This document shows positions 49,901-64,000 of a stretch of DNA of 64,000 nt, one piece after another. Within the stretch, counting starts at the first letter, position 1. Every line of letters starts with the position of its first letter. The position numbers and the translations under genes are program-made. The notes below the pieces were generated by a model, which saw nothing but the letters and a program-made list of their open reading frames with translations, had not been told where the DNA came from and made no database searches. Source of the stretch: Sphingomonas hengshuiensis (GTDB taxonomy: Bacteria > Pseudomonadota > Alphaproteobacteria > Sphingomonadales > Sphingomonadaceae); assembly GCF_000935025.1 (NCBI RefSeq), contig NZ_CP010836.1, positions 1,798,001-1,862,000 of the forward strand, written 5' to 3'.

Positions 49901-50380
49901 GACGAAGTCACGCTGTTCCTGCACCAGGTCGTGTCGGAACTCCCGCCAGAGCAGCAGAAGATGATCCAGCAGTCGCGCAATCGCGATGCCGTGCTGGAGG
50001 GGCGCCGAATCCTGATCGTCGAGGACGACGTCCGCAACGTCTATTCGCTGACCAACATCCTCGAGCCGCGCGGGGCGAAGGTCTCGATCGCGCGCAACGG
50101 CCAGGAGGCGCTCGACGCGCTGGCCGACACCGCCGGAACCGCGGGCGAAGTCGACCTCGTGCTGATGGACGTGATGATGCCTGTGATGGACGGGCTCGAC
50201 GCCACGCGCCGCATCCGGCGCGATTCGCGCTGGGCCAAGCTGCCGGTGATCATGCTGACGGCGAAAGCAATGCCCGATGATCAGGAACGATGTCTCGCGG
50301 CAGGCGCTAACGACTATATGGCCAAGCCCCTCGACGTCGACAAACTCCTCTCCCTGGTGCGCGTATGGATGCCGCGCTGA
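46952..50380 (+). CDS. Large hybrid histidine kinase: CHASE3-GAF-HisKA-HATPase with three receivers
   Basis: A 1142-residue membrane kinase. Helix 1 (AFGVAAALLFFLLSAALAY), a periplasmic CHASE3 domain (LLSAVQDAETGQRGFLLTG, about 60-200), helix 2 (about 205-225), a GAF-like domain (about 240-390), a long Glu/Gln-rich coiled coil (about 395-470), HisKA with His485 in NMSHELRTP, HATPase (DTGIGISPE; GGTGLGLSISREL), then three receivers starting near residues 751, 873 and 1018 (LLIVEDDP, VLIVEDDP, ILIVEDDV). The third keeps the full LVLMDVMMPVMDG. It overlaps the CheR gene by 16 bases. This architecture matches multi-receiver stress kinases found with CheR and CheB genes. Confidence 0.93.
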   Translation: MPQTSARTAANSRSRFGVTMAFGVAAALLFFLLSAALAYSNIQALRADTSKVVHTHEVITELGTLLSAVQDAETGQRGFLLTGNDRYLEPYQDAIARAGTSLSSIETLTRDNDLQQANLRRLKPHVDAKFAELKETIELRRTQGVAAALAIVNADRGKVEMDAIRAQLGTMRTEERRLRESRLAQMEAAYGTTTLTGVITALIGMALSLAVAVLIQRNALARQRQAWLQAGEVGLAQAMLGDKTVRELGECILDYLTPYLGAQASVLFKGEEGAFKRMASLGVPGDASVPNSFGLREGLLGRVAADGAPMVLDDVPEGYLTLGSALGRDTPRQLVIAPFSADGVVNAVIEFGFLHKADERALTFLDQIGKPVGVALRSARYRTELQALLEATQRQSEELQVQSEELRVSNEELEEQGRALKESAVRLEQQQVELEQTNSQLEEQAQLLETQRDDLARTGAAVELKARELEQASQYKSDFLANMSHELRTPLNSLLILSKLLGDNPTGNLTDEQAQYARTIQASGNDLLNLINDILDLSKIEAGHIDIRAEAVALKRLASDLRQTFDPVAQQRGLAFDIAIAEDAPAQIATDRQRLAQILKNLLANAFKFTSEGTIALRIEPVAEGRIALTVSDTGIGISPEQHQAIFDAFRQADGAINRKYGGTGLGLSISRELARLLGGSISLTSEAGVGSSFTVTIPVDYDPGQVEARIEPTPAPAAPATATKKPMARRVVSLPAVDDDRDRLEGARRMLLIVEDDPVFAGIVRDLSREAGFQCVVAGTAQEALDLARRFKPSAIVLDLGLPDQSGLSVLDRLKREDATRHIPIHVISGSDHQQTAFSLGAMGYMVKPVKRDDLAHALDALEAQLTRTMRRVLIVEDDPVQRDAVGKLLAGPEVETVGAGTAAECLKLLGEQTFDCMVLDLTLPDASGFSLLETLSADGAHSFPPVIVYTGHDLSSGDEQQLRRYSSSIIIKGAKSPERLLDEVTLFLHQVVSELPPEQQKMIQQSRNRDAVLEGRRILIVEDDVRNVYSLTNILEPRGAKVSIARNGQEALDALADTAGTAGEVDLVLMDVMMPVMDGLDATRRIRRDSRWAKLPVIMLTAKAMPDDQERCLAAGANDYMAKPLDVDKLLSLVRVWMPR

Positions 50381-51213
50381 ACCTCGCGGCCGGGGAGCCG
50401 GTCGAGGATATCGAGATCCACTTGCTGCTGGAGGCGCTCTACCGGCGCTATCACTATGATTTCCGCCATTATGCGCGCGCGTCGATCAAGCGGCGGCTGC
50501 GGCAGGCACGCACGCAATTGGGGTTCGTCAGCCTCTCCGCGCTTCAGGATGCGCTGTTGCGCGACGAGGCCGTGGTGACGCGGCTGCTCGACTATCTGAC
50601 GGTGCAGGTCAGCGAGATGTTTCGCGACCCCGGCTATTTCCGCGCGATCCGCGAAAAAGTGGTGCCGCATCTGCGCACCTATCCCTCGCTCAAGATCTGG
50701 ATCGCCGGGTGCAGCGGCGGCGAGGAGCTGTATTCCTTCGCCATCCTGCTGCACGAAGAGGGGTTGCTCGACCGCACCCTGCTCTACGCGACCGACATCA
50801 ATCCCGCGGCGCTGGAGATCGCGCAGAGCGGCGTCTATGCGCTCGATCGGATCGCGGCGTTCACCCAGAACCATCAGCGCTCGGGCGGAAAATCCTCGCT
50901 GTCCGACTATTATGCCACCGCCTATGGCCGCGCCGTGTTCGACAAAAGGCTGCGCGACAAAGTGGTGTTCTCCGACCACAGTCTCGTCACCGACGCGGTG
51001 TTCGCCGAATGCCAGTTCGTGTCGTGCCGCAACGTGATGATCTATTTCGATCGCCCGCTCCAGGATCGCGCCATCGGGCTGTTCCGCGATTCGCTCAGCA
51101 GGCGCGGCTTTCTCGGCCTCGGCTCGAAAGAGACGCTCCGCTTCTCCGAACATGCCAACGCCTTCACCGAGTTCGTCCGCGAGGAGAAAATCTATCAGCG
51201 GCGCGAGGCATGA
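50365..51213 (+). CDS. CheR-type protein-glutamate methyltransferase
   Basis: A 282-residue SAM-dependent methyltransferase. The N-terminal helical domain (YDFRHYARASIKRRLRQA) precedes the methyltransferase fold: FRDPGYFRAI, the SAM motif IWIAGCSGGEELYS, LYATDINPAALEIA and FVSCRNVMIYFDRPLQ. All are standard CheR blocks. CheR methylates glutamates of chemoreceptors, but no chemoreceptor or CheA gene is near. The gene overlaps the kinase before it (16 nt) and the CheB after it (ATGA), so it works with these kinases, perhaps by methylating the coiled coil of one of them, which is inference. Confidence 0.92.
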   Translation: MDAALNLAAGEPVEDIEIHLLLEALYRRYHYDFRHYARASIKRRLRQARTQLGFVSLSALQDALLRDEAVVTRLLDYLTVQVSEMFRDPGYFRAIREKVVPHLRTYPSLKIWIAGCSGGEELYSFAILLHEEGLLDRTLLYATDINPAALEIAQSGVYALDRIAAFTQNHQRSGGKSSLSDYYATAYGRAVFDKRLRDKVVFSDHSLVTDAVFAECQFVSCRNVMIYFDRPLQDRAIGLFRDSLSRRGFLGLGSKETLRFSEHANAFTEFVREEKIYQRREA

Positions 51214-51782
51214 CGGTGGCGCGCGCACAGGCGGTGGTGATCGGCGCCTCGGCGGGCGCCGTGCAGGCGCTGTCGCACATACTGCCGCAATTGCCGGCGA
51301 GCTATCCGCTGCCGGTGCTGGTGGTGGTCCATGTCCCGGCGGCGCCATCGGGGCTGGTCGCGTTGTTCAGCGCCAAATGCGCGATCCGCGTCCGCGAGCC
51401 CGAGGACAAGGAACCGATCGTGCCCGGCACCGTCTATTTCGCGCCGCCAAGCTATCACATGCTGGTCGAAAGCGATCGCAGCATCGCGCTGTCGATGGAT
51501 GAGCCCGTGCTGTTCTCGCGCCCGTCGATCGATATTCTCTTCGAAAGCGCGGCGGACAGCTATGGCGCCGGGCTGGTCGGCGTGGTGCTGACCGGCGCCA
51601 ATGAGGATGGCGCGGCGGGCGCGGCCATGGTCGCCGCGGCGGGCGGCACGGTGTTGGTCCAGGACCCGCAACACGCCTTTGCAACTGCGATGCCCCGCGC
51701 CGCGCGCGAGCGGTGTCCGGCGGCGCAAACGCTACCACTGAACACGATTGCGGACTATCTGGTGCGCCTGGGAGCGATATGA
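51210..51782 (+). CDS. CheB-type methylesterase without receiver domain
   Basis: A 190-residue stand-alone CheB catalytic domain. The catalytic Ser is in IGASAGAVQA, the His in LVVVHVPAAPSG and the Asp in VVLTGANEDGAAG. It lacks the N-terminal receiver of chemotaxis CheB, so its activity is not controlled by direct phosphorylation. The start overlaps CheR and the stop overlaps the next kinase, both as ATGA. It would reverse CheR-catalysed methylation within the same cassette. Confidence 0.92.
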   Translation: MTVARAQAVVIGASAGAVQALSHILPQLPASYPLPVLVVVHVPAAPSGLVALFSAKCAIRVREPEDKEPIVPGTVYFAPPSYHMLVESDRSIALSMDEPVLFSRPSIDILFESAADSYGAGLVGVVLTGANEDGAAGAAMVAAAGGTVLVQDPQHAFATAMPRAARERCPAAQTLPLNTIADYLVRLGAI

Positions 51783-53470
51783 GCGGCACATCGGATCCGA
51801 TCCATTTCCTGATCGTCGACGACCTCGAGGAAAACCTCGTGGCGCTCGAGGCGCTGTTGCGGCGCGACGGGCTCGGCTTCCTCCGCGCGCGATCGGGCGA
51901 GGAGGCGCTTGAGCTTCTGCTGCAGCACGAGATCGCGCTCGCGCTGCTCGACGTCCAGATGCCGGGCATGGACGGGTTCGAGCTGGCCGAGTTCATGCGC
52001 GGCAATGCGCGGACCCGGCATGTCCCGATCATCTTCCTGACCGCGGGCAGCGCCGACACCCAGCGGCGGTTTCGCGGCTATGAAGCCGGCGCAGTCGACT
52101 TCATCCAGAAGCCGATCGAAGGCGATATCCTGCGCAGCAAGGCCAATATCTTCTTCGACCTGCACCACCAGCGCCGCGAGATCCTGCGCCAGAGCGATGC
52201 GCTTGCCGATGCCGCGGGCCGGCTCGAAATGCAGGTGCGCGAGCGGACTGCGGAACTCGAACATGCGCTGGAGCGGCTGCGTGCCGAGACCGCCGAGCGC
52301 GAGCGCGCCGAGGCATCGCTGCGCCAGAGCCAGAAGATGGAAGCGGTCGGGCAGCTGACCGGCGGAATCGCGCATGACTTCAACAACATGCTGACCGGAA
52401 TCATCGGTTCGCTCGACCTGATGCGCCGCCGCATCGCGATGAACCGCGTCGACGAGCTCGACCGCTATATGGACGCCGCGACCAGCTCGGCCGAGCGCGC
52501 GGCATCGCTGACCCAGCGGCTGCTCGCCTTCTCCCGCCGCCAGTCGTTGGACCCCCAGCCGCTGGCGATGAACGCGCTCATCCACTCGATGACGCAACTC
52601 GTCGAGCGCGCCCTGCCCGAGAAGATCGAGCTGGCGCTGGTGCTGGGGACCGACCTTCCCACCGCGCTGGCCGATTCGAACCAGCTCGAGAACGCGATCC
52701 TGAACCTCGCGCTCAATGCGCGCGACGCGATGCCCGATGGCGGTCGGCTCACGATCGAAACCGGCGTGGCGGATATCGATTCGGCGGATGCGGCAGCGCC
52801 TCCGGGCGTGGCCGACAATCGCTTCGTGGTCGTATCGATCTCCGACACCGGCACCGGCATCCCGCCCGATCTGCTCGACAAGGTGTTCGATCCGTTCTTC
52901 ACGACCAAGCCGATCGGCAAGGGCACCGGGCTCGGGCTGTCGATGGTCTATGGCTTTGCCCAGCAGAGCGGCGGCTTTGTCCGCATCCAGAGCGCAGCGG
53001 ACGTCGGCACCTCGGTCCGCCTCTACCTCCCGATCACCGAGCATTCCCCCAGCGACACGACCGTGGCGCCGGGCAGCGCGCCGCGCGGCGACGGCGAGCG
53101 GGTGCTGCTCGTCGAGGACGACCCCGCGGTGCGGATGCTCGTCCGCGAAGTGCTCGAAGAGCTGCACTATGAGGCGATCGAGATCGCCGACCCGTCCGAC
53201 GCGGTGCCGCTGCTCGCGACCGACACGCGGATCGACCTGATGATCTCCGACGTCGGGCTGCCGGGCATGAACGGCCGCGAACTGGCCGATATCGCGCGCA
53301 CCCACCGCCCCGACCTGCCGATCCTGTTCATCACCGGCTATGCCGAAAATGCGACGCTGCGCGCGGGGTTCCTCGGCACCAACATGACGATGATCACCAA
53401 GCCGTTCACGCTCGACAGCCTCGCGACCCGGATCAGCGAACTGATCGGAAGCCCGGTTTCGATCGACTGA
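51779..53470 (+). CDS. Receiver-kinase-receiver hybrid protein (cytosolic)
   Basis: A 563-residue protein with no membrane helix. N-terminal receiver (FLIVDDLEENLVALEALL; phospho-acceptor in LLDVQMPGMDG; AVDFIQKPI), coiled coil (about 130-200), HisKA with GIAHDFNNML, HATPase (NLALNARDAMPDGG; DTGTGIP; GKGTGLGLSMVYG), and a C-terminal receiver (VLLVEDDPAVR; MISDVGLPGMNG; TKPFT). The N-terminal receiver is likely phosphorylated by the upstream multi-receiver kinase, so the cassette forms a kinase-to-kinase relay. It is the fourth gene of a fully overlapping operon. Confidence 0.92.
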   Translation: MSGTSDPIHFLIVDDLEENLVALEALLRRDGLGFLRARSGEEALELLLQHEIALALLDVQMPGMDGFELAEFMRGNARTRHVPIIFLTAGSADTQRRFRGYEAGAVDFIQKPIEGDILRSKANIFFDLHHQRREILRQSDALADAAGRLEMQVRERTAELEHALERLRAETAERERAEASLRQSQKMEAVGQLTGGIAHDFNNMLTGIIGSLDLMRRRIAMNRVDELDRYMDAATSSAERAASLTQRLLAFSRRQSLDPQPLAMNALIHSMTQLVERALPEKIELALVLGTDLPTALADSNQLENAILNLALNARDAMPDGGRLTIETGVADIDSADAAAPPGVADNRFVVVSISDTGTGIPPDLLDKVFDPFFTTKPIGKGTGLGLSMVYGFAQQSGGFVRIQSAADVGTSVRLYLPITEHSPSDTTVAPGSAPRGDGERVLLVEDDPAVRMLVREVLEELHYEAIEIADPSDAVPLLATDTRIDLMISDVGLPGMNGRELADIARTHRPDLPILFITGYAENATLRAGFLGTNMTMITKPFTLDSLATRISELIGSPVSID

Positions 53471-53523: not shown

Positions 53524-53991
53524 CTACCCCGCGATCGGCAGCTCGTGCGTGGACTTGATCTCCGACAGCGCCACGGTCGAGTTGATTTCCTGAATCCCGG
53601 GCAATTTGCTCAGCTTGTCGAAGAAGAACCGCTCATAGGCGTCGATATCGGTCGCGACGATCCGCAGCATGAAGTCGGTCTGGCCCATCAGCACATAGGC
53701 ATCCAGCACTTCGGGGAAGGAGCGGATCGCGGCGCTGAACTCGTCGAGGTTCGAGCGGCCGTGCGCGTTGAGCCGGACCTGCGCGAAGATATGCGCATTG
53801 AGCCCGATCTTGCGGCGGTCGATCACCGCGACCCGCGCGCGGATCACGCCTTCGCGCTCCAGCCGGTCGATCCGCCGCCAGCAGGGCGATGCCGAGAGCC
53901 CGACCTTGGCTGCAATCTCCGCAGTCGTCTGCGCAGCGTCGCGTTGCAACTCGCGGATGATTCTGCGCTCATACCGGTCGAGTTCGATCAT
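53524..53991 (-). CDS. Lrp/AsnC-family transcriptional regulator
   Basis: A 155-residue regulator. The N-terminal winged helix (ELDRYERRIIRELQRDAAQT; VGLSASPCWRRIDRLEREGVI) is typical of Lrp, and the C-terminal RAM/AsnC effector domain includes VLDAYVLMGQTDFMLRIVA. The family binds amino acids as octamers. It is divergent from a Leu/Val-type dehydrogenase gene with 125 bp between, so it probably controls that gene in response to a branched-chain or aromatic amino acid. Confidence 0.92.
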   Translation of the reverse strand: MIELDRYERRIIRELQRDAAQTTAEIAAKVGLSASPCWRRIDRLEREGVIRARVAVIDRRKIGLNAHIFAQVRLNAHGRSNLDEFSAAIRSFPEVLDAYVLMGQTDFMLRIVATDIDAYERFFFDKLSKLPGIQEINSTVALSEIKSTHELPIAG

Positions 53992-54116
53992 CTAAACCTC
54001 GATATGCGTATAATGAGGTCAATCTTACCGCGGATAGCCCATTTGGTCCACAGCTTAGGTCACATCTTTCCCGACGCACGCCGCATAAGCATCGCGAACC
54101 GCACACAGGAACGATC
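53992..54116. promoter_or_regulatory. Divergent promoter region of Lrp regulator and amino-acid dehydrogenase
   Basis: A perfect TATAAT (54009-54014, plus strand) lies about 100 nt before the dehydrogenase start but has no clear -35. On the minus strand, TTGACC reads away from it toward the lrp gene. AGGAACG precedes the dehydrogenase ATG at 54117. Lrp sites are too degenerate to place by eye. Confidence 0.4.
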
Positions 54117-55175
54117 ATGGCCTTTCAGACCGACCACGCGCTCGCCCCGGCCAGCGTCCACCTCCTCCACGACGCAGCGAGCGGGCTCGACGGCGTGATC
54201 GTCCTCCACTCGACCGCGCTCGGGCCCGCTGCCGGGGGCTGCCGGTTCTGGAGCTATCCCGATCGCGAGGCGATGATCGCCGATGGCTGCCGACTTGCCG
54301 AGGGGATGAGCTACAAGAATGCGCTCGCCGATCTGCCGCTGGGCGGGGGCAAGGCAGTGCTGCGCCGTCCCGAGGGCGATTTCGATCGCACCGCGCTGTT
54401 CCGCGCCTTTGGCCGCGCCGTCGAGTCGCTGCGCGGCAGCTATGTCACTGCCGAGGATGTCGGCACGCATGTCGAGGACATGACGGTGGTGCGCGACCAT
54501 AGCCGGCACGTCGCGGGGCTTCCGCTGCGCGGCGACCGGCCCGGCGGCGATCCCTCGCCCTGGACCGCGCGCGGCGTATTCCTGTCGATGCGCTATGCCG
54601 CCGAGCGCAGCCTGGGGCGGCCGCTCTCCGACTGCACGGTCGCGGTGCAGGGCGTCGGCGCAGTCGGTGCCGCGCTGGCCGGGATGCTGCATCGCGCCGG
54701 GTCGCGGCTGATCGTCTCGGACGTCGACGCCCGTGCAGCAGCGCGCGTCGCGATCGAAACCGGGGCACAGGTGGCGAGCGTTTCCTCGATCCTGTCGGCG
54801 CGCGCGGACATCTTCGCGCCGTGCGCGCTGGGCGGCGTCCTCCGGCACGACACCGTGGGCAAGCTCAAGGCCAAATTGGTGTGCGGCGCGGCCAACAACC
54901 AGCTCGCCGAGCCCGCCGATGGCGACCGGCTGGCCGACCGCGGCATCCTCTATGCCCCCGATTATGTCGTCAACGCCGGCGGGATCATCAACGTCGCCGC
55001 CGAATATCTGAGCTGGTCGAGCGAAGAGGCGGCGCAGCGCGTCGAAGCGACGCCGCAACGGCTGGCGCAGGTGCTCGACTATGCCGCCGCCACGGGCACC
55101 GCGCCGCACGACGCCGCCGACCGGCTCGCGCGCGAGCGCATCGCTGCGGGCCATGCCGCGCGCCGCGCCGCCTGA
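54117..55175 (+). CDS. Leu/Val/Phe-type amino-acid dehydrogenase
   Basis: A 352-residue member of the Glu/Leu/Phe/Val dehydrogenase family. Catalytic region: GMSYKNALADLPLGGGKAV, with the two key lysines of this family. GPAAGGCRFWSY is the conserved substrate-side segment. The NAD domain has VAVQGVGAVGAALAGML and VSDVDARAA. The length suits leucine or valine dehydrogenase (about 350-365), not glutamate dehydrogenase (over 400). It reversibly deaminates branched-chain or aromatic amino acids to 2-oxo acids. The divergent Lrp regulator fits this role; exact substrate is uncertain. Confidence 0.9.
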   Translation: MAFQTDHALAPASVHLLHDAASGLDGVIVLHSTALGPAAGGCRFWSYPDREAMIADGCRLAEGMSYKNALADLPLGGGKAVLRRPEGDFDRTALFRAFGRAVESLRGSYVTAEDVGTHVEDMTVVRDHSRHVAGLPLRGDRPGGDPSPWTARGVFLSMRYAAERSLGRPLSDCTVAVQGVGAVGAALAGMLHRAGSRLIVSDVDARAAARVAIETGAQVASVSSILSARADIFAPCALGGVLRHDTVGKLKAKLVCGAANNQLAEPADGDRLADRGILYAPDYVVNAGGIINVAAEYLSWSSEEAAQRVEATPQRLAQVLDYAAATGTAPHDAADRLARERIAAGHAARRAA

Positions 55176-55547: not shown

Positions 55548-56183
55548 TCACGCCGCAGCGTCTCCGTGCAGGCTCATCAGCGAGTCCATCAGCCCTTCGT
55601 CCGCGCTCGAACACACGCCGAGCACCAGCGCCTCCTCGCATCCTTCGGCCACGACATAGGCGTGCCCCATCGACGAATCGATATAAATGGTCTCGCCCGG
55701 GCCCAGCACCACCGGATCGTAGAATTCGGTGTGGACCTCGATCCGCCCCTCGATGACGTAGATGAATTCCTCGCCCTGATGCCGGACGAGATCGCCGAAC
55801 TCGCGGGCGCTGTGCGCGCGGATGCGCGTGACCAGCGGGATCATCCGCTTCCGGCGCAAATCGGTGCAGAGGTAATGATAATCGTAATTGGGCGTGGTGA
55901 CGCGCACCGCCTGCTCCATCGTGCCCAGGCTGCGACGACCCGTCACGCGGACGACATTATCCTCGGACCCTTCGGCAAACAGGTCCGACATGCGGATGTT
56001 GAGCCGCTGGGCCAGTTGCTGGAGCTTGTCATAGGTCAGCGTCAGCCGGTCATGCTCGACCTTGGACAGCGTCGAGACCGGAATGCCCGACTTGGCGCTC
56101 ATCTCCTTGAGCGTCCAGTCGTGACGCGCACGGATACCGCGCAGCACCGCACCCAGCGTCGGCTTGGAGGCGCTATTTGCCAT
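55548..56183 (-). CDS. XRE-family regulator with C-terminal cupin sensor domain
   Basis: A protein of about 211 residues. The N-terminal XRE helix-turn-helix is LGAVLRGIRARHDWTLKEMS then GIPVSTLSKVEHDRLTLTYDKL. The C-terminal cupin (about 125-195) has HQGEEFIYVIEGRIEVH and LGPGETIYIDSSMGHAYV. This class often controls amino-acid or polyamine catabolism, with the cupin binding the inducer. A GTG at 56186 directly precedes the chosen ATG 56183. It is divergent from the serine-hydrolase/DgcA genes and is the likely regulator of the whole 56-64 kb block. Confidence 0.9.
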   Translation of the reverse strand: MANSASKPTLGAVLRGIRARHDWTLKEMSAKSGIPVSTLSKVEHDRLTLTYDKLQQLAQRLNIRMSDLFAEGSEDNVVRVTGRRSLGTMEQAVRVTTPNYDYHYLCTDLRRKRMIPLVTRIRAHSAREFGDLVRHQGEEFIYVIEGRIEVHTEFYDPVVLGPGETIYIDSSMGHAYVVAEGCEEALVLGVCSSADEGLMDSLMSLHGDAAA

Positions 56184-56199
56184 CACTGCCCATCCGCGT

Positions 56200-56230
56200 T
56201 TGACAATTTTCTAATCAGGATCATTATGTC
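56200..56230 (+). promoter_or_regulatory. Promoter/operator of hydrolase-DgcA transcript (shared motif copy 1)
   Basis: A consensus -35 TTGACA (56200-56205) is followed 16 nt later by CATTAT (56222-56227) as -10. The stretch between contains TTCTAATCAGGA. The whole 31-nt segment matches the one at 59351-59381 at 22 of 31 positions, with the first 21 positions matching at 17. It lies between the XRE-cupin gene and the hydrolase gene, so it is a likely site for that regulator. Confidence 0.65.
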
Positions 56231-56318
56231 CCTATCGGGCTAATAGATGTAGCTCATTGATAGGGATTCGCGCAGGTCGCTGCAACCGTCCGCGCGGACA
56301 ATGCAAAAGGGGATCGCG

Positions 56319-58322
56319 ATGCGTTCGTTTCGCAGGCTGATAATCGCGCTGATGGCGGTGCTCGTGCTACCGTTCACCACCCAATTGTTCGCACAGGGGC
56401 CGGTGCCACAGGGGCCCGCCCCCAAAGCCTCGGCGCCCGCTGCGGCCTCCGCGCCCCCCGCGGGCCAGGCGACCCGGAACCCGCCGCCGCTCGACGCCAT
56501 AGATCTGGAGACATGGCTCGACGGCTTCATGCCCTATGCGCTCGAGCGCGGAAGCATCGCGGGCGCCGTCGTGGTCGTCGTGCGGGGCAACGGCACCGTG
56601 CTGCAAAAGGGCTATGGCTATGCCGACTATGCCACGCGCAAGCCGGTGTCGCCCGACGCCACGCTGTTCCGCCCGGGCTCGATCTCGAAGCTGTTAACCT
56701 GGACCGCAGTGATGCAGCAGGTCGAGGCGGGCAGGATCGACCTCGACAAGGACGTGAATTCCTATCTCGATTTCACGATCCCGGCGTTCGACGGCAAGCC
56801 GGTCACGATGCGCAATATCATGACGCACACCGCCGGGTTCGAGGAGTCGGTGCGCCATCTGATCACCAGCGATCCCAAGGCGGCGCTGCCGCTGGGCCGG
56901 CTGGTGAAGGTCACGCTGCCCCAGCGTGTCTTTGCGCCGGGCACGACGCCGGCCTATTCCAACTATGCCACCGGCCTCGCCGGCTATATCGTCGAGCGCG
57001 TCAGCGGCATGTCGTTCGACGCCTATGTCGAGCAGCGCATCTTCGCCCCGCTGGGCATGACCCGGTCGAGCTTCCGCCAGCCGTTGCCCGATGCGCTCAA
57101 GCCGCTGATGTCGAGCGGCTATCCCGATGTGAACGATAAGGCCAAGCCGTTCGAGATTGTCGCCCCCGCGCCCGCCGGCAGCCTCTCCTCGACCGGCGCC
57201 GACATGGGCAAGTTCATGATGGCGCATCTTACCAACAACGGCGTGCTGATGAAGCCCGAGACGATGCGGATGATGCATGATTTCCGCGCGCCGGGGATCG
57301 GCCCGCTCAACACCATGGCGCTGGGCTTTTACGAACAATGGGTCAACGGCCAGCGTTCGATCTCGCATGGCGGCGACACCCAATGGTTTCACAGCGACCT
57401 GTGGCTGTTCCCGGAATCGGATGTCGGCCTGTACATCTCGATGAACAGCAGCGGCACAGAAGGCGCGGCGCATGCCGTACGCAGCGCGCTGTTCCACAAA
57501 TTCGCCGACCGCTATCTGCCCGGCACCGATCCGATCGGCAAAGTCGATGACGCCACCGCGCGTCAGCACGCCGCGCTTCTCGCCGGCAATTATGTCAGCA
57601 GCCGCGGCTCGTTCACCAATTTCCTGAGCGTGCTCAACCTGCTGGGCCAGTCAACCGTAACCGTTGGCGAGGATGGCAAGATCGCCTTCCCCGCGCTCGA
57701 TGGGCTGAGCGCCGGCGCGCGCGACTGGGTCGAAGTCGCGCCATTCGTGTGGCGCGACACCAACACCGGCGAACGCCTCGCCGCAGTCGTGAAGGACGGC
57801 AAGGTCGTGCGCTTCAGCGTCGATGTCGGCTCGCCGTTCATGGTGTTCGAACCCGCGCCCGCGGGTCTCAACACCGTATGGCTGGTGCCGGCACTGCTGC
57901 TCGCGCTCGGCATCATCCTGCTCGCTGCGCTGGCATGGCCGGTGCGCGCGCTGGTCCGCCGCAGCTATGGCCAGAAGCTCGCGCTCCAGGGGCGTTCGCG
58001 GCTCGCCTATCGCCTGTCGCGCGGCTTCGCCTGGCTGGTGCTGGCGGCAGTGGCGGGATGGATGGGCCTCATCGCCGCCTTCTCGGCCGATCTCGGATCG
58101 ATCGGCGGCCCGCTCGACTGGCTCATTATCCTGCTGCGGGTCATCAGCCCGATCGCAGCGATCGGGCTCGTCGCATCGAGCGGCTGGCTGTTGTGGCTCG
58201 CCTTTGCGAGCAAGCGCCGCTGGACCGCCAGGCTCGGCGCGCTCCTGCTGCTGCTCGCGGGGCTGGTGGTGCTGTGGGTGGTGGTCTCCAGCCACCTCTA
58301 CGGCTTCAACATGGTCTATTGA
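56319..58322 (+). CDS. Membrane-anchored serine hydrolase, beta-lactamase/DD-peptidase fold
   Basis: A 667-residue exported protein. Signal peptide about 1-25; a Pro/Ala-rich linker; a class C beta-lactamase-type domain (about 65-430) with Ser121-I-S-Lys124, Tyr213-Ser-Asn and an HGG triad in SISHGGDTQWF; a small beta domain; and four or so C-terminal membrane helices (from about 525). Relatives include D-aminopeptidases and D-Ala-D-Ala carboxypeptidases. ATG 56319 follows AGGGGA; an ATG at 56301 would add six residues. It overlaps the racemase gene by one base (TGATG). Its role may be hydrolysis of D-amino-acid peptides at the outer face of the inner membrane, which is inference from context. 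Confidence 0.87.
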   Translation: MRSFRRLIIALMAVLVLPFTTQLFAQGPVPQGPAPKASAPAAASAPPAGQATRNPPPLDAIDLETWLDGFMPYALERGSIAGAVVVVVRGNGTVLQKGYGYADYATRKPVSPDATLFRPGSISKLLTWTAVMQQVEAGRIDLDKDVNSYLDFTIPAFDGKPVTMRNIMTHTAGFEESVRHLITSDPKAALPLGRLVKVTLPQRVFAPGTTPAYSNYATGLAGYIVERVSGMSFDAYVEQRIFAPLGMTRSSFRQPLPDALKPLMSSGYPDVNDKAKPFEIVAPAPAGSLSSTGADMGKFMMAHLTNNGVLMKPETMRMMHDFRAPGIGPLNTMALGFYEQWVNGQRSISHGGDTQWFHSDLWLFPESDVGLYISMNSSGTEGAAHAVRSALFHKFADRYLPGTDPIGKVDDATARQHAALLAGNYVSSRGSFTNFLSVLNLLGQSTVTVGEDGKIAFPALDGLSAGARDWVEVAPFVWRDTNTGERLAAVVKDGKVVRFSVDVGSPFMVFEPAPAGLNTVWLVPALLLALGIILLAALAWPVRALVRRSYGQKLALQGRSRLAYRLSRGFAWLVLAAVAGWMGLIAAFSADLGSIGGPLDWLIILLRVISPIAAIGLVASSGWLLWLAFASKRRWTARLGALLLLLAGLVVLWVVVSSHLYGFNMVY

Positions 58323-59329
58323 TGCCTGCGCCGGACACGCAGGGACCGACGCTCGACCTTCGGGTCGAGCGTTTTCCCTATCACAAGCCGTTCCGCATCT
58401 CGGGCCATGTCTTTGCCGAAACTGCGGTGCTCGTCGCCACGCTGTCGCAGGGCGCACATCGCGGTCGCGGCGAAGGCGCCGGGGTCTATTATCTGGGCGA
58501 CGACGCAGGCCATATGCTGGCCGAGGCAGAGCGGGTGCGCGGCGCGGTCGAAGCCGGGGCGACGCGCGACGATCTCCAGCACCTGCTCCCGCCCGGCGGC
58601 GCGCGCAACGCGCTCGACTGCGCCTTTTGGGAGTTGGAGGCGCAGCAGGCGGGCACGCCCGTATGGAGGCTCGCCGGGCTCGATCGGCCGCGACCGCTGC
58701 GCTCGACGCTGACTTTGGGGGCGGACACGCCCGAGGCGATGGCGGCAGGCGCGCTGGCGATCGACCGGCAAGCCCCGGTGAAGCTCAAGCTGACCGGCGA
58801 CCTTGCCGACGATATCGCGCGGCTGGCGGCGGTGCGCGCGGCGCGACCCGAGGCGTGGATCGGCGTCGACGCGAACCAGGGCTATGCGATCGAGACGCTG
58901 CGCGCGCTGTTGCCGGTGCTGGTCGAACACCGCATCGCGCTGCTCGAACAGCCGCTGGCGCGCGGTCGCGAGGCCGATCTCGACGGCCTCAAACGCCCCC
59001 TGCCCTTTGCCGCCGACGAAAGCGCGGTGACGTTCGCCGACACCGCCGGGCTGGTCGGGCGGTTCGACGTCGTCAATATCAAGCTCGATAAATGCGGCGG
59101 CCTGACCGAGGGGCTGGCGATCGCGCGGCAGGCGCGGCGGCTCGGGCTCGAGGTGATGGTGGGCAACATGATGGGGACCAGCCTGTCGATGGCGCCTGCC
59201 TATCTGCTCGGCCAGCTTTGCGACGTCGTCGATCTCGACGGCCCGACCTTCCTCGCGCGGGATCGCACCCCCGGTGTCCGCTATGCCAATGGCCAGATTC
59301 ACTGCGCCAGTGACATTTGGGGCGCATAA
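58322..59329 (+). CDS. dgcA: DgcA-like N-acetyl-D-glutamate racemase / dipeptide epimerase (enolase superfamily)
   Basis: A 335-residue mandelate-racemase-type enzyme. The KxK acid/base motif is VKLKLTG (Lys154, Lys156); metal ligands are Asp183 in GVDANQGY, Glu209 in LLEQPL and Asp232 in AADESAVT; the second base is in VNIKLDKCGGLTE (254-262). It has the layout of L-Ala-D/L-Glu epimerases, which share these motifs. The DUF1611 (DgcN-like) gene nearby at 61673 matches the published D-glutamate route in which DgcN acetylates D-Glu and DgcA racemises N-acetyl-D-Glu. Dipeptide epimerase activity is the main alternative. Confidence 0.85.
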   Translation: MPAPDTQGPTLDLRVERFPYHKPFRISGHVFAETAVLVATLSQGAHRGRGEGAGVYYLGDDAGHMLAEAERVRGAVEAGATRDDLQHLLPPGGARNALDCAFWELEAQQAGTPVWRLAGLDRPRPLRSTLTLGADTPEAMAAGALAIDRQAPVKLKLTGDLADDIARLAAVRAARPEAWIGVDANQGYAIETLRALLPVLVEHRIALLEQPLARGREADLDGLKRPLPFAADESAVTFADTAGLVGRFDVVNIKLDKCGGLTEGLAIARQARRLGLEVMVGNMMGTSLSMAPAYLLGQLCDVVDLDGPTFLARDRTPGVRYANGQIHCASDIWGA

Positions 59330-59350
59330 TCAATTCATTTTCTATAAGGG

Positions 59351-59381
59351 TTGACAGTTCTCTGATTAGGACAATAGTCTC
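59351..59381 (+). promoter_or_regulatory. Promoter/operator of TonB receptor-DgcN transcript (shared motif copy 2)
   Basis: TTGACA (59351-59356) with AATAGT 16 nt downstream (59373-59378). It contains CTGATTAG, the exact reverse complement of CTAATCAG in the copy at 56200-56230, at the same place. The match suggests both transcripts answer to one regulator. It lies 91 nt before the receptor start. Confidence 0.65.
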
Positions 59382-59471
59382 ACATCAGAGACGAGAGCGA
59401 TATAGGCGTCTATGGGCGATGTTCGCCACTTTCGCCGCCGCTCGCCGGCCAGCACCTTGGGGGAACAAGTC

Positions 59472-61667
59472 ATGAAGCAGGCACTTTGGATCGCATCCAG
59501 CGCACTCGCCCTCGCCGCCTCCCAACCCGCGCTCGCCCAGGACGTGGTGGCGCGCGATCCCGACACCATCGTCGTGACGGCCCAGAAGCGCGAACAGGAC
59601 CTGCTCGACGTGCCGCAATCGGTGTCGGTCGTATCGGGCGCCACGCTGGAACGGCAACAGGCAGTGACGTTCCAGGACTATGCCAAGCTCATCCCCGGCC
59701 TCCAGCTCGAACAGAGCAACCCCGGCGAGGCCCGCATCGTCCTGCGCGGGATCAACACCGGCGGCGTCGCCTCGACGGTATCGACCTATATCGACGAAAC
59801 CCCGTTTGGATCGTCGAGCGGCCAGAATAACGGCGCGATCCTCGCGGGCGAGTTCGACACGTTCGACGTGACCCGGATCGAAGTCCTGCGCGGCCCGCAG
59901 GGCACGCTATACGGCGCCAGTTCGCTCGGCGGCGTGGTGAAGTTCGTGACGAACCTTCCCGACACCGCCGCAACCGAGGGCCGCGCCCGCGCCACCATCG
60001 AAACCACCGAGGGCGGCGACCTGTCCTATATGGGCCAGGCGATGCTCAACCTGCCAGTGTCCGAGAAGCTCGCGATCCGGGGGTCGGGTTTCTATCGCTC
60101 CTATGGCGGCTATATCGACTCGATCGGCACCGGCGGCTCGGACGTGGCGGAGAATATCAACGGCTCCAAAAGCTATGGCGGCCGGCTCTCGGCGCTGTTC
60201 GTGCCCACCGAGACGCTGTCGGTTCGGCTCAGCGCGGTGCTCCAGGATTTCGACAGCAAGGGCGGCAGCGTCGTCGACGCCGATCCGGCGACCTTGGCGC
60301 CGCTTTACGGCCTGACCCAGTCGCAGTTCGTTCCCGAATTCACCAAGGTCAAGTATCGGCTGTACAACGGCACGCTCAACCTCGACCTGGGCGGGGCCGA
60401 GCTGCTGTCCTCGACCAGCTATGCGGTGCAGGACGTGACGCTGCGCGACGACCTGACCACGCCCTATGGCGCCGCGCTGGGGGTGCCGAGCGACATCGGC
60501 ATGGCCCAGATGACCAACCTGACCAAATGGACCCAGGAAGTGCGCCTGCAATCCCCGACGAGCAGCAGCGTCGAATGGCTGGTCGGCGGCTATTACACGC
60601 ATGAAAAGGGCGGCATCTTCCAGCGGATCGACTTGCTGACTCCGGGCACGCTGTCGGTGGACCCGGCGATGCCGCAGGTCGCCGATATCTTCACGACCTC
60701 GACCTATCAGGAGGTCGCCGGCTTCGGGAACGCAACCGTCCATCTCGGGCCGCGCTTCGATCTCACGCTGGGCGGGCGGTACAGCCACAACAAGCAGTTC
60801 GCGGATCAGGGCGGCACCGGTCTCCTCGCCCCCGAGGCGCTCGATTCGCGCTCGTCGGAGAATGTCTTCACCTGGTCGGGCGCCGCCAAATATTCGGTCT
60901 CCGACACGGCGTCGCTCTATGCCCGCGTCGCCAAGGGTTTCCGCCCCGGCGGCCCCAACCTCCTGCCACCCGGAGTGCCCGCGGGCACCCCGCGCACCTA
61001 TGGCTCGGACTCGCTGATCAGCTATGAAGTCGGCGTGAAGGCCCAGACCGCCGACAACAGTTTCTCGATCGATGCGGCAGCGTTCCATATCGACTGGACC
61101 GACATCCAGCTCTTCACCGTGATCAATGGCTTCGGCCTCAACGCGAACGGAGGCAAGGCCAAGAGCGAAGGGTTCGAATTCACCGCGACGCTCCGGCCCA
61201 CGCGCGGCTTCGTGGTGGCGTTCAACGGCGCCTATACCCGTGCGCGGCTCACCAGCGACACCGATCCCAATGTCGGCGGGCTGGCGGGAGATCCCCTGCC
61301 GTTCACCCCGGAGTTCAACTGGAACGTCAACGCCGATTATAGCTGGACGCTGGCGGGCGAGACCGAGGCGTTTGTCGGCGCCTCGCTCCGCGCGCTATCG
61401 AAACAGCGCGCCAATTTCGACGCCGGCTTCGGCGCCGCGTTCGCGCTCGATCGCCCGACGCTGCCTGCCTATGAAGTGATCGACCTGCGCGCAGGCGTCG
61501 ACTTCGGGCGCTTCACCCTCGACGTCTATGCCAAGAACGTCGCGAACAGCCGCGGCGTGACCGATGTGACGACCGGCGGCGGTCTCCCGGTGGCGCCCAA
61601 CGGCGCCATCACCACCGGCATCGTCCGTCCCCGCACCTTCGGCCTTTCCCTCGGCGCGGGGTTCTGA
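59472..61667 (+). CDS. TonB-dependent outer-membrane receptor
   Basis: A 731-residue receptor. Signal peptide about 1-23 (ending ALAQ), a TonB-box-like DTIVVTAQKREQ, a plug domain (VPQSVSVVSGATLERQQ; RIEVLRGPQGTLYGASSLGGVV) and a 22-strand barrel with terminal Phe (SLGAGF), as required for assembly. It brings substrates above the porin limit into the periplasm using TonB energy. There is no iron-uptake gene nearby; its place in the DgcA/DgcN block suggests a peptide or muropeptide cargo, which is inference. ATG 59472 was chosen because it gives the signal peptide directly. Confidence 0.92.
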   Translation: MKQALWIASSALALAASQPALAQDVVARDPDTIVVTAQKREQDLLDVPQSVSVVSGATLERQQAVTFQDYAKLIPGLQLEQSNPGEARIVLRGINTGGVASTVSTYIDETPFGSSSGQNNGAILAGEFDTFDVTRIEVLRGPQGTLYGASSLGGVVKFVTNLPDTAATEGRARATIETTEGGDLSYMGQAMLNLPVSEKLAIRGSGFYRSYGGYIDSIGTGGSDVAENINGSKSYGGRLSALFVPTETLSVRLSAVLQDFDSKGGSVVDADPATLAPLYGLTQSQFVPEFTKVKYRLYNGTLNLDLGGAELLSSTSYAVQDVTLRDDLTTPYGAALGVPSDIGMAQMTNLTKWTQEVRLQSPTSSSVEWLVGGYYTHEKGGIFQRIDLLTPGTLSVDPAMPQVADIFTTSTYQEVAGFGNATVHLGPRFDLTLGGRYSHNKQFADQGGTGLLAPEALDSRSSENVFTWSGAAKYSVSDTASLYARVAKGFRPGGPNLLPPGVPAGTPRTYGSDSLISYEVGVKAQTADNSFSIDAAAFHIDWTDIQLFTVINGFGLNANGGKAKSEGFEFTATLRPTRGFVVAFNGAYTRARLTSDTDPNVGGLAGDPLPFTPEFNWNVNADYSWTLAGETEAFVGASLRALSKQRANFDAGFGAAFALDRPTLPAYEVIDLRAGVDFGRFTLDVYAKNVANSRGVTDVTTGGGLPVAPNGAITTGIVRPRTFGLSLGAGF

Positions 61668-61672
61668 AAGTC

Positions 61673-62728
61673 ATGAGTATGCGCGTATCCCTGTCTGCAC
61701 CCGTCGTCGCCGATGACGGTTTGACCCTGCCACAGCCCTATCTGCTATTCCTCGGCGACACGACCGAAGCGGGCTTCGCCAAGACCGCGCTCGGCCTGGT
61801 CGACTGGGCGGGGGACCGCTGCGTCGGCGAACTGGCGGTGGACGGCTGCACGGTCACGACCGGGCTGCCGCTTATGTCCCCGGCAGAGGCGCGGGCGGCG
61901 GGTGCGCGGTCGCTAGTGATCGGTGTTGCCAACCAGGGCGGGGTGATCGGCGATCGCTGGATCGCCCCGCTGGTCGAAGCGATGGAGGCCGGGCTCGACC
62001 TGATCAGCGGGCTTCACCAGCGGCTGGGGAGCGTGCCCGCGCTGGCCGATGCGGCGCGGCGCACCGGGCGGCGGCTGATCGATATCCGCACGCCCCCGTC
62101 CGCGATCCCGATCGCCACCGGGCGCAAGCGCGGCGGCAAGAGGCTGCTGACCGTCGGCACCGACTGCGCATTGGGTAAGAAATACACCGCGCTCGCGCTG
62201 CATCGCGCCTTCGTCGCGCGCGGAGCCGACGCCGATTTCCGCGCGACCGGCCAGACCGGGATCATGATCGCGGGTGGCGGCATCCCGATGGATGCAGTGG
62301 TCTCCGATTTCGAAGCGGGCGCCGCCGAGATGCTGAGCCCCGATGCGGCGCCCGGCCATTGGGACGTGATCGAGGGTCAGGGATCGATCTATCACCCCGC
62401 CTATGCCGCGGTGTCGCTGGGCCTGCTCCACGGCAGCCAGCCCGATGTCTTCGTGGTCTGCCACGACCCGGGCAGGACGATGGTGCTGGGCCTTAGCGGC
62501 TATGCCCTCCCCTCGGTCGAGGACGTCATCGACCTCACCATCCGCCTGGGGGGCCGCACCAACCCCGCGATCCGCTGCGGCGGGGTCAGCTTCAACACCG
62601 GCCGCTATGCCGAGGATGAAGCCGAGGCGCTGATGGCTGCCGAGCGCGATAGGCTGGGTCTGCCCGTCGCCGATCCGATCCGTGGTGGCGCGGCGTTCGA
62701 CGCTCTCGTCGCGAACTGCCTCGCATGA
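61673..62728 (+). CDS. dgcN: DgcN-like D-glutamate N-acetyltransferase (DUF1611)
   Basis: A 351-residue DUF1611 protein. The C-terminal two-thirds has a P-loop-like GTDCALGKK (162-170) followed by YTALALHRAF, FRATGQTGIMIAGGGIPMDAVVSDF, GQGSIYHPAYAAVSLGLLHG and VVCHDPGR. DgcN from marine Proteobacteria is reported to acetylate D-glutamate, the first step of a D-Glu catabolic route finished by DgcA. Older annotation calls the family ATP-binding or EBNA-1 nuclear-protein-like. Start 61673 or 61679 are both possible. It overlaps the transporter gene by ATGA. Confidence 0.85.
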   Translation: MSMRVSLSAPVVADDGLTLPQPYLLFLGDTTEAGFAKTALGLVDWAGDRCVGELAVDGCTVTTGLPLMSPAEARAAGARSLVIGVANQGGVIGDRWIAPLVEAMEAGLDLISGLHQRLGSVPALADAARRTGRRLIDIRTPPSAIPIATGRKRGGKRLLTVGTDCALGKKYTALALHRAFVARGADADFRATGQTGIMIAGGGIPMDAVVSDFEAGAAEMLSPDAAPGHWDVIEGQGSIYHPAYAAVSLGLLHGSQPDVFVVCHDPGRTMVLGLSGYALPSVEDVIDLTIRLGGRTNPAIRCGGVSFNTGRYAEDEAEALMAAERDRLGLPVADPIRGGAAFDALVANCLA

Positions 62729-63861
62729 CCATTGCCGGGCCGGGCCGCGCGTCGACCCGGTTCCAGCGCTTCCTGCTGCCCGGCTTCGCGCTCAAGGCGG
62801 TGATCATCGGCGGCGGCTATGCGACGGGGCGCGAGCTTGCCGAATATTTCGCGCCCGCCGGCCCCTGGGGCGGGCTGGCGGCGATGCTGCTGGCCACTGC
62901 GATCTGGAGCGTCGTCGCGGCGCTGACCTTCGCGCTGGCGCGGGCGATGCACGCCTATGACTATCGCAGCTTTTTCCAGGGGCTGCTCGGCCCTTTCTGG
63001 ATCGCGTTCGAGATTGCCTATTTGATCTTCGTCATCCTGATCCTCGCGGTGTTCGGCGCGGCGGCGGGGGCGATCGGCGCGGCGACCTTTGGCTGGCCGG
63101 AGGCGCTGGGTTCGGTCCTGCTCGCGCTCGGCATCATCGTCACGACGGCGCTGGGCACCGGCGCGGTCGAGCAGCTGTTCAAATATGTCTCGATCCTGCT
63201 CTACGCCGTCTATGCGCTGTTCCTGGTGCTGGCGCTGGCCAGCTTCGGCGGGCTGATCGGCCAGGGTTTTGCCGCGGCGCCGCCGCCCGCGGGCGACTGG
63301 GTGGCGGGCGGGCTGACCTATGCCGCCTATAACATCGTCGGCGCAGTCGTGATCCTGCCGGTGCTCCGCCACCTGACCAGCCGCCGCGACGCAGTGGTGG
63401 CGGGACTGATCGCCGGCCCGCTGGCGATGCTGCCCGCGATCCTGTTCTTCGTGGTGATGATGGCCTTCTACCCGGCGATCGCCGCCGAGGCGCTGCCGTC
63501 CGACTTCCTGCTTCGGCAGATGCGCCTTCCCGGCTTCCACCTCCTGTTCCAGCTCATGATCTTCGCGGCGCTGCTCGAAAGCGGCGCGGGCGCGGTGCAT
63601 GCCGTCAACGAGCGCATTTCGGGCGCCATGGAGGCGCGGGGGCGCCCGCCGCTCGGCACCCGCGCCCGCGCCGCGATCGCCGCGGTGATCCTGGCCGGTT
63701 GCATGTTCGTCGCCGCTCGGGTCGGGCTGATCGCGCTGATCGCCAGCGGCTATCGCTTCCTCGCCTGGATGTTCCTGCTCGTCTATCTCGCGCCGCTGCT
63801 GACGATCGGCGTCTGGCGGCTGTTTCGCACGCCCCCCACCGCCCCGGAGTCCCCGCAATGA
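62725..63861 (+). CDS. YkvI-family membrane transporter (APC-like fold)
   Basis: A 378-residue integral membrane protein with about ten helices. It starts RFLLPGFALKAVIIGGGYATGRELAEYF, the unwound first-helix glycine motif of the YkvI family, distant relatives of APC and NSS amino-acid transporters. Other marks are LTYAAYNIVGAVVILPVL and AALLESGAGAVHAVNERI. The substrate is not known for the family; here an amino acid or a small peptide released by the periplasmic hydrolases is likely. It overlaps DgcN at its start and the last gene at its end by four bases each. Confidence 0.82.
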   Translation: MTIAGPGRASTRFQRFLLPGFALKAVIIGGGYATGRELAEYFAPAGPWGGLAAMLLATAIWSVVAALTFALARAMHAYDYRSFFQGLLGPFWIAFEIAYLIFVILILAVFGAAAGAIGAATFGWPEALGSVLLALGIIVTTALGTGAVEQLFKYVSILLYAVYALFLVLALASFGGLIGQGFAAAPPPAGDWVAGGLTYAAYNIVGAVVILPVLRHLTSRRDAVVAGLIAGPLAMLPAILFFVVMMAFYPAIAAEALPSDFLLRQMRLPGFHLLFQLMIFAALLESGAGAVHAVNERISGAMEARGRPPLGTRARAAIAAVILAGCMFVAARVGLIALIASGYRFLAWMFLLVYLAPLLTIGVWRLFRTPPTAPESPQ

Positions 63862-64000
63862 ACCCGCTGCACCTGCTCGCCCTCGGGCTGGCGCTCGCCG
63901 TCGCGACGCCCGCCGCAGCCGATCCCCCCGCCGATCTCGCCGCCCGGGTCGAGGCGCTGCGCAAGCGGGTCGGCGCCGCCGGGGTGTCGATCGCGATCGT
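63858..64000 (+). CDS. Exported serine hydrolase, 5' part only (window edge)
   Basis: Only the first 47 codons are present. They give a signal peptide (MNPLHLLALGLALAVATPAAA) followed by DPPADLAARVEALRKRVGAAGVSIAIV, which is the usual start of beta-lactamase-fold serine hydrolases. The active-site SxxK lies beyond the window. It overlaps the transporter by ATGA, so it belongs to the same transcript and would be a second hydrolase for the system. Confidence 0.7.
   Translation, partial: MNPLHLLALGLALAVATPAAADPPADLAARVEALRKRVGAAGVSIAI

Follow-up and report, generated by a model that had tools for sequence, protein, structure and literature searches.

A single-regulator gene block of sphingomonads with a predicted role in D-peptide scavenging and an exchangeable TonB receptor

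An eight-gene block at the end of a 64,000-nucleotide (nt) stretch of Sphingomonas hengshuiensis DNA (contig NZ_CP010836.1, positions 1,798,001 to 1,862,000; hereafter the window) encodes a helix-turn-helix (HTH)-cupin regulator, an S12 serine hydrolase (A), a DgcA-like protein, a TonB-dependent receptor, a DgcN-like protein, a transporter, a second S12 serine hydrolase (B) and an M19 dipeptidase. The block is probably a dedicated regulon for scavenging D-amino-acid peptides, with a D-residue that is more likely non-acidic than D-glutamate. An earlier note on this DNA had proposed a scavenging system for D-glutamate peptides; the conserved set of uptake, hydrolysis, transport and D-amino-acid genes under a single regulator was upheld, and D-glutamate as the substrate was not. 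Gene set, gene order, conservation, two operator-like elements, receptor swapping and residue changes were computed directly, and from these we infer regulator binding, the direction of control, every enzyme activity, cell location and substrate.

In the proposed route, the HTH-cupin regulator would switch on both transcription units of the block from two promoter-operators of the same type. The TonB receptor would import peptides across the outer membrane, and the membrane-anchored and exported S12 hydrolases, together with an M19 lipoprotein dipeptidase, would cut them to free amino acids. A transporter of APC fold would then carry the D-amino acid in. Once N-acylated by the DgcN-like enzyme, it would be racemised by the DgcA-like enzyme, and the L-form would be freed by a deacylase encoded elsewhere.

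All genes named in the earlier note are present. The regulator of XRE type (55548..56186, reverse strand) is divergent from the remaining genes and carries HTH_3 and Cupin_2 domains above Pfam cut-offs. On the forward strand follow hydrolase A (56301..58322; PF00144, 207 bits; four predicted C-terminal helices), with a start perhaps at ~56319 according to a 667-residue database copy, and the DgcA-like candidate racemase or epimerase of the enolase superfamily (58316..59329; NF042940, 364 bits). The TonB receptor (59412..61667, start possibly 59472) has plug and barrel domains above cut-off. It is followed by the DgcN-like (DUF1611) acyltransferase candidate (61673..62728; NF041892, 442 bits; closest solved chain 7xrj) and a 378-residue inner-membrane transporter candidate with an APC/LeuT-like predicted fold (62725..63861). 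Hydrolase B, an S12 protein with DUF3471 (PF00144, 205 bits), begins at 63858 on the forward strand and continues past position 64000 to L004:11435, equivalent to window coordinate 65435. The M19 dipeptidase (L004:11432-12604; PF01244, 286 bits against a cut-off of 26) lies just beyond the window end, overlaps hydrolase B by 4 nt, and has an N-terminus that was lipobox-like as judged by eye. Intergenic gaps of -7, 82, 5, -4, -4 and -4 nt from hydrolase A onward, with an operator-like element inside the 82-nt gap, point to two predicted transcription units, hydrolase A with the DgcA-like gene and receptor through dipeptidase.

In order to establish how widely the block is conserved, 298 family genomes were searched for DgcN at an E-value of at most 1e-60. 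A match was present in 82 genomes, and a window-type DgcN, defined by at least 61% identity to that of the window (remaining family matches 45-59%), in 50. The core order, comprised of divergent regulator, hydrolase A, DgcA-like gene, DgcN-like gene and transporter, was complete in 37 of 60 window-type family loci (33 of 53 with long flanks) and in 49 of 80 named loci, which are the best 80 of at least 500 (45 of 68 with long flanks). It occurred in none of 20 loci carrying other DgcN types, two of which (L074 and L079) have the regulator and some hydrolase, transporter or DgcA genes in a different order. The sets of 60 and 80 share some loci and, with the window's own, represent 141 loci with 130 distinct DgcN sequences. 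The joining of receptor, hydrolases, transporter and D-amino-acid enzymes in one block, and the recurrence of its gene order, which the earlier note had put forward as a check, are both borne out by these counts.

The divergent regulator homologue was found upstream in 46/60 and 60/80 loci. The 80 named loci belong mostly to Sphingopyxis, Sphingomonas and their kin, with seven from gammaproteobacteria of the genera Steroidobacter, Povalibacter, Rudaea, Arenimonas, Dyella and Peristeroidobacter. A class-wide DgcN search of 385 genomes yielded, besides the window's own sequence, a single match at 62% identity and others at no more than 56%. Among 20 loci picked from the 98 class genomes with a DgcN match, DgcA was near DgcN in 19, the regulator or transporter was near it in none, and weak S12 and TonB neighbours were seen only at L210. 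Carriage is patchy; all five genomes sampled from the same genus lack window-type DgcN. Loci with the divergent regulator did not form one clade in a DgcN tree built by a quick method, with support from the Shimodaira-Hasegawa-like approximate likelihood ratio test (SH-aLRT) only and several long branches flagged; 17 label changes were counted, compared with a shuffled mean of 44.

Other occurrences of DgcN were also recorded. Near the 62% DgcN outside the family (L204), neither DgcA nor any other block gene was seen. A second block type, with a same-strand regulator (38-42%) and D-aminoacylase-like, alpha/beta hydrolase and amidohydrolase genes, was seen at L135, L144, L147, L151, L153, L154 and L157. 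DgcN sequences 65-74% identical to the window's are located on large plasmids of Sphingobium, Croceicoccus and Novosphingobium (NZ_CP115457.1, NZ_CP019603.1, NZ_CP060053.1 and NZ_CP039697.1), a match in 4 of 81 plasmid records. Ten genomes (G201, G242, G253, G085, G277, G215, G150, G140, G163 and G010) each gave between four and seven matches to DgcN (E 1e-60 or better), as if separate loci served different D-peptides.

Control of the block by one regulator, as the earlier note had it, agrees with the distribution of a 35-base operator-like promoter element. Element 1 (56199..56233, forward strand), in the gap between regulator and hydrolase A, consists of TTGACA, a palindromic core CTAATCAG and CATTAT; element 2 (59350..59384, forward strand) lies ahead of the receptor unit and was not part of motif building. 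At least 20 of 35 bases were matched in 87 of 93 distinct regulator-hydrolase gaps and 17-19 in five, with one gap empty. Using a degenerate pattern with up to three mismatches, exactly two sites were present in the 5.2-Mb genome, both in the block, and the reversed control gave none. Matches occurred in 19 of 25 further genomes (two sites in 12, one in 4, four or five in 3), and five of the six genomes without the element have no window-type DgcN. A weight matrix detected 206 sites in the 141 loci, none in the reversed control, and one in the 20 other-type loci (L074); both copies were present in 46 of 48 complete blocks, with one copy each in L058 and L059.

Since two copies of one operator-like element occur in this genome only within the block, a single regulator is proposed for it; the data support one regulator gene and a shared cis element that would serve both units. 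The self-complementary core CYRATYRG was found in 160 of 206 sites, and TTGACA is followed 16 bases on by a -10-like hexamer. The HTH-cupin protein presumably binds both elements. Placement of the operator between -35 and -10 suggests repression, and the regulator most likely acts as a repressor that a pathway product releases. The best named match for the regulator was the HTH-type regulator PuuR (NF007408), at only 36.6 bits with a cut-off of 211.

The TonB receptor is replaced in place between species as the other block genes co-diverge. This was observed in 54 blocks that had all eight genes and a receptor beside DgcN matchable by tblastn, blocks with unlike or missing receptors being excluded; 48 were retained after dropping identical DgcN. 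Across the 48 blocks, the pairwise identity of every gene tracked that of DgcN (r 0.84-0.93) except for the receptor (0.46). Among 506 block pairs with at least 80% DgcN identity, receptors were below 45% identical in 236, giving a two-humped distribution, and the receptors form five groups and two singletons. In Sphingopyxis sp. JAI128 and LC363 (L113 and L116), for example, the DNA is ~90% identical on either side of receptors whose proteins share 40%; the first of these stretches extends some 450 bases into the receptor frame and the second starts at the DgcN start codon. A swap of the barrel with the plug kept, as the blastn edges of this pair might imply, was rejected because plug and barrel differ together in protein profiles. 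With the rest of the block nearly constant, the in-place swap represents a natural experiment on TonB receptor recognition.

The identity of the D-residue was assessed from the DgcN-like and DgcA-like pair. Three DgcN genes occur in the genome, all of them close to a DgcA-like gene. The window pair scored below both curated cut-offs, DgcN-like with 442.5 bits to NF041892 (cut-off 480) and DgcA-like with 364.2 bits to NF042940 (cut-off 400), whereas the LysR-linked pair of the same genome (L005) was above both with 507 and 440 bits. Pairs at L006, L014, L147 and L162 were below the cut-offs as well (DgcN 446-464, DgcA 347-370 bits). The window DgcA-like protein also fell short of the L-Ala-D/L-Glu epimerase model NF011708 (239 bits, cut-off 343). 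Window-type and canonical sequences were then compared (DgcN, 142 and 30 rows; DgcA, 112 and 32 rows; near-copies included), canonical denoting LysR-type rows and the 20 class loci minus L204, not each checked by cut-off. Residues D162, C163, G166 and K167 in the GTDCxxGK stretch of DgcN were conserved at 97% or more in both types, and the catalytic KxK, the second Lys and the three metal ligands of DgcA were found in 107/107 window-type rows.

Two sites in DgcN (A44 for Arg and A164 for Ser) and eleven in DgcA were type-specific; of the latter, four lie within the first 60 residues, among them G28 and Y57, each in place of Arg. Arg44 of DgcN and Arg28 and Arg57 of DgcA were all absent from 108, all present in 27 and mixed in 7 of 142 distinct pairs, kinship being ignored. 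YcjG keeps both DgcA arginines (positions 28 and 57) in the alignment. In one study (PMC5808125), the C-terminal specificity of YcjG is narrow for Glu, and a relative from Thermotoga accepts Ala-Phe, Ala-Tyr and Ala-His. Judging from the aligned residues, the specificity of the window pair has probably changed from the canonical target, and the D-residue handled is probably non-acidic rather than D-glutamate. The arginine changes offer an immediate test of how a DgcN/DgcA pair chooses its amino acid.

A neighbouring gene of the ELFV type (54117..55175, forward strand), linked to the block and not part of its core, has leucine dehydrogenases as its best solved relatives (6acf, 299 bits). Its subtype, defined at E 1e-99 or better, was present in 25 of 50 genomes with window-type DgcN compared with 19 of 248 without (kinship ignored). 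In at least 12 of those 25 genomes it lay no more than 20 kb from the block, one DgcN copy having been measured for most genomes with several. At locus level, 19 of the 130 distinct window-type loci (counting the window) had it, in four different arrangements, and 0/20 other-type loci. An Lrp-type regulator and the leucine-dehydrogenase-like gene (window 53524-55175) recur together beside the block in varying orientations. The link fits a non-acidic L-amino acid as the product.

The earlier note's own target, muropeptides or poly-gamma-glutamate as food with the last two enzymes acting on D-glutamate itself, is an unlikely alternative. The intact catalytic residues are compatible with it, and M19 and S12 enzymes could fit stem peptides. 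D-glutamate is nonetheless doubtful, because both cut-offs were missed by the window pair (442 against 480 and 364 against 400) and surpassed by the LysR-linked pair, the three arginines are absent, the neighbouring gene is leucine-dehydrogenase-like, and no peptidoglycan-specific hydrolase, be it for the D-Glu-DAP or for the sugar-peptide bond, was recognised in the scanned genes. NlpC/P60, LD-carboxypeptidase and amidase families were all absent from the core genes and from the scanned representatives of unassigned block genes, which formed 20 clusters (80 genes); 10 representatives were scanned, probably one more, and the remaining clusters are mostly single genes.

The hydrolytic and transport genes are consistent with the preferred reading of a regulon for D-amino-acid peptides. 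In hydrolase A, SxxK, YxN and HxG were invariant in 22/22 aligned rows, and a structural model (predicted local distance difference test, pLDDT, 82) comprised an S12 domain with four C-terminal helices. Its nearest solved folds were a Pyrococcus S12 protein (2qmi), the Lip3 DL-peptidase, esterase IS11 and the R61 DD-peptidase, followed by many beta-lactamases; a D-stereospecific hydrolase was also among them. Nearest solved chains were 7spn, Flp and ClbP for hydrolase B and 2rag for the M19 dipeptidase. By family assignment, S12 and M19 enzymes can accept D-residues, suggesting a potential for D-peptide cleavage. The name 'YkvI-type', given to the transporter in the earlier note, was not sustained: the protein had no Pfam or NCBIfam match, and its model (pLDDT 84) has the APC/LeuT fold, with Nramp (8e6m) as the best Foldseek match by E-value and BasC (9h76) as the best listed by template modelling score (0.71, root-mean-square deviation 3.9), AdiC and LAT1 also being matched. 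Elsewhere the block is supplemented by a further M19 gene, by POT peptide transporters, by genes of the D-aminoacylase-like and amidohydrolase kinds, or by a D-serine-dehydratase-like gene (PF14031; five block loci, including L144).

The POT peptide transporter gene, found in 24 of 141 window-type loci and mostly where the DPEP-type dipeptidase is missing, bears on a second alternative, in which whole peptides would enter the cytoplasm, the DgcA-like enzyme would, like YcjG, epimerise dipeptides at a C-terminal D-residue, and an ordinary dipeptidase would then cut them. The DPEP-type dipeptidase was present in 1 of 22 loci with POT versus 57 of 92 without, among 114 rows with enough flank. The contrast comes down to four independent pairs on supported branches and was not significant in a kinship-aware sign test, so POT and dipeptidase are not claimed as exclusive alternatives. 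A DxD stretch, a dipeptide-epimerase motif, is kept in 107/107 window-type DgcA rows; it was rejected as a discriminator since LysR-type DgcA keeps it equally (13/13). Furthermore, the dipeptidase of the window block has an export-type N-terminus and the transporter an amino-acid-like fold, which renders this route improbable. The loci with POT are L040, L042, L045, L052, L053, L056, L057, L061, L063-L067, L070, L071, L132, L138, L148, L152, L155, L159, L161, L162 and L169.

A defensive function, in which the hydrolases and dipeptidase would degrade antibiotic peptides containing D-amino acids and the other genes recycle the fragments, draws on the presence of the ClbP peptidase among the nearest solved sequences of hydrolase B and on receptor swapping. 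It is very unlikely, as a dedicated importing receptor and a catabolic tail would suit feeding better, and the block genes scanned included no recognised export or immunity family. Microcystin breakdown, brought to mind by Sphingopyxis microcysteis and Sphingosinicella microcystinivorans among the 80 named matches, was rejected with near certainty, the MlrC C-terminal family being found in only one (G242) of ten block genomes searched, this one included.

Several observations weigh against a regulon for peptides of a non-acidic D-amino acid. Neither the arginine counts nor the dehydrogenase link is corrected for kinship. The L210 pair, outside the family, also has none of the three arginines, and at L006, L078 and L080 Arg44 is present together with G28 and Y57. 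R25 is kept in 102 of 107 window-type DgcA rows and 12 of 13 LysR-type rows, so window-type DgcA could still bind an acid; R24 of the epimerases reportedly binds the Glu side chain (work of Klenchin, 2004). Half of the block genomes (25/50) do not carry the dehydrogenase subtype, and no operator-like element lies by the dehydrogenase in the window. Esterases and beta-lactamases are also among the nearest S12 folds, so the S12 hydrolases may not be D-specific. The transporter's top Foldseek match by E-value is a metal transporter, and the window block contains no deacylase. With regard to the element, G113 has window-type DgcN and no site, and three-mismatch sites at G168:C4:808988 and G242:C1:118677 are away from the listed window-type DgcN genes.

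The enzyme families of the block are known; the block with its operator was not found described in the literature searched, which covered few subscription papers, and the accessible parts of PMC9790009, PMC13046382, PMC5388701 and PMC3605383 contain nothing on it. A pathway for acidic D-amino acids and the corresponding amides is described with DgcN as its key gene (PMC12363236), and Shewanella is proposed to use D-Glu through DgcN-DgcA (PMC10845958). The window pair belongs to the same two families as this D-glutamate catabolism by N-acylation and racemisation and keeps the catalytic residues, but differs in its scores below both equivalog cut-offs, in the absent arginines, and in having its genes split by the TonB receptor. 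The YcjG/YkfB L-Ala-D/L-Glu epimerases of murein peptide recycling share the enolase superfamily and a two-Lys active site (PMC5808125). In contrast to these, the window DgcA-like protein scored 239 bits against 343 and has G28 and Y57 where YcjG has Arg, and no D-Glu-DAP (diaminopimelate) endopeptidase was recognised in the block. Gene context led a 2012 study (PMC3400609) to predict TonB receptors for peptidoglycan and for N-acyl-D-amino acids, and the resemblance is a receptor beside D-amino-acid genes. In the accessible part of that study single receptors stand beside a D-aminoacylase gene, with no mention of a regulator, operator or DgcN/DgcA block, whereas the window has the whole block.

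Within the same genome, the L005 cluster likewise holds DgcN and DgcA, there adjacent, with D-aminoacylase-like and GltP-like genes nearby, but has no match to the regulator, hydrolase A, receptor or transporter of the block. Its partners (L005:5420-11304) are presumably LysR, D-aminoacylase-like and GltP-like from their translations, and an S12-like gene adjoins the cluster. Another DgcN-DgcA set (L006:4559-15679) is accompanied by AraC, D-aminoacylase-like, TonB receptor, MFS and amidase genes, named from translations.

A broader proposal, possible though speculative, is that these blocks represent a hitherto unnamed class, 'D-peptide utilisation loci', as a counterpart to polysaccharide utilisation loci. 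Each would have an HTH-cupin regulator with two private operators and a constant core that N-acylates and racemises hydrophobic D-amino acids (e.g. D-Leu-like residues of non-ribosomal or other D-peptides) to give L-forms and converts these to keto acids with a leucine-type dehydrogenase, with the TonB receptor exchanged in place to change uptake. D-amino acids belong to organic matter that resists breakdown. If true, a single-switch locus coupling TonB import of D-peptides to D-to-L conversion would be a genomic marker for consumers of such matter.

Additional genes were observed around the blocks. A PF13354 beta-lactamase-like gene is in or near some of them (L020:12686-13735 and 10 other loci), and an S15 X-Pro dipeptidyl-peptidase-like gene lies near the block end in seven loci (L123:14925-16841 and six others). 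Upstream in the window (46952-53470), open reading frame translations indicate signalling genes, namely a 1142-residue hybrid histidine kinase with several receiver-like parts, CheR-like and CheB-like frames, and a second kinase.

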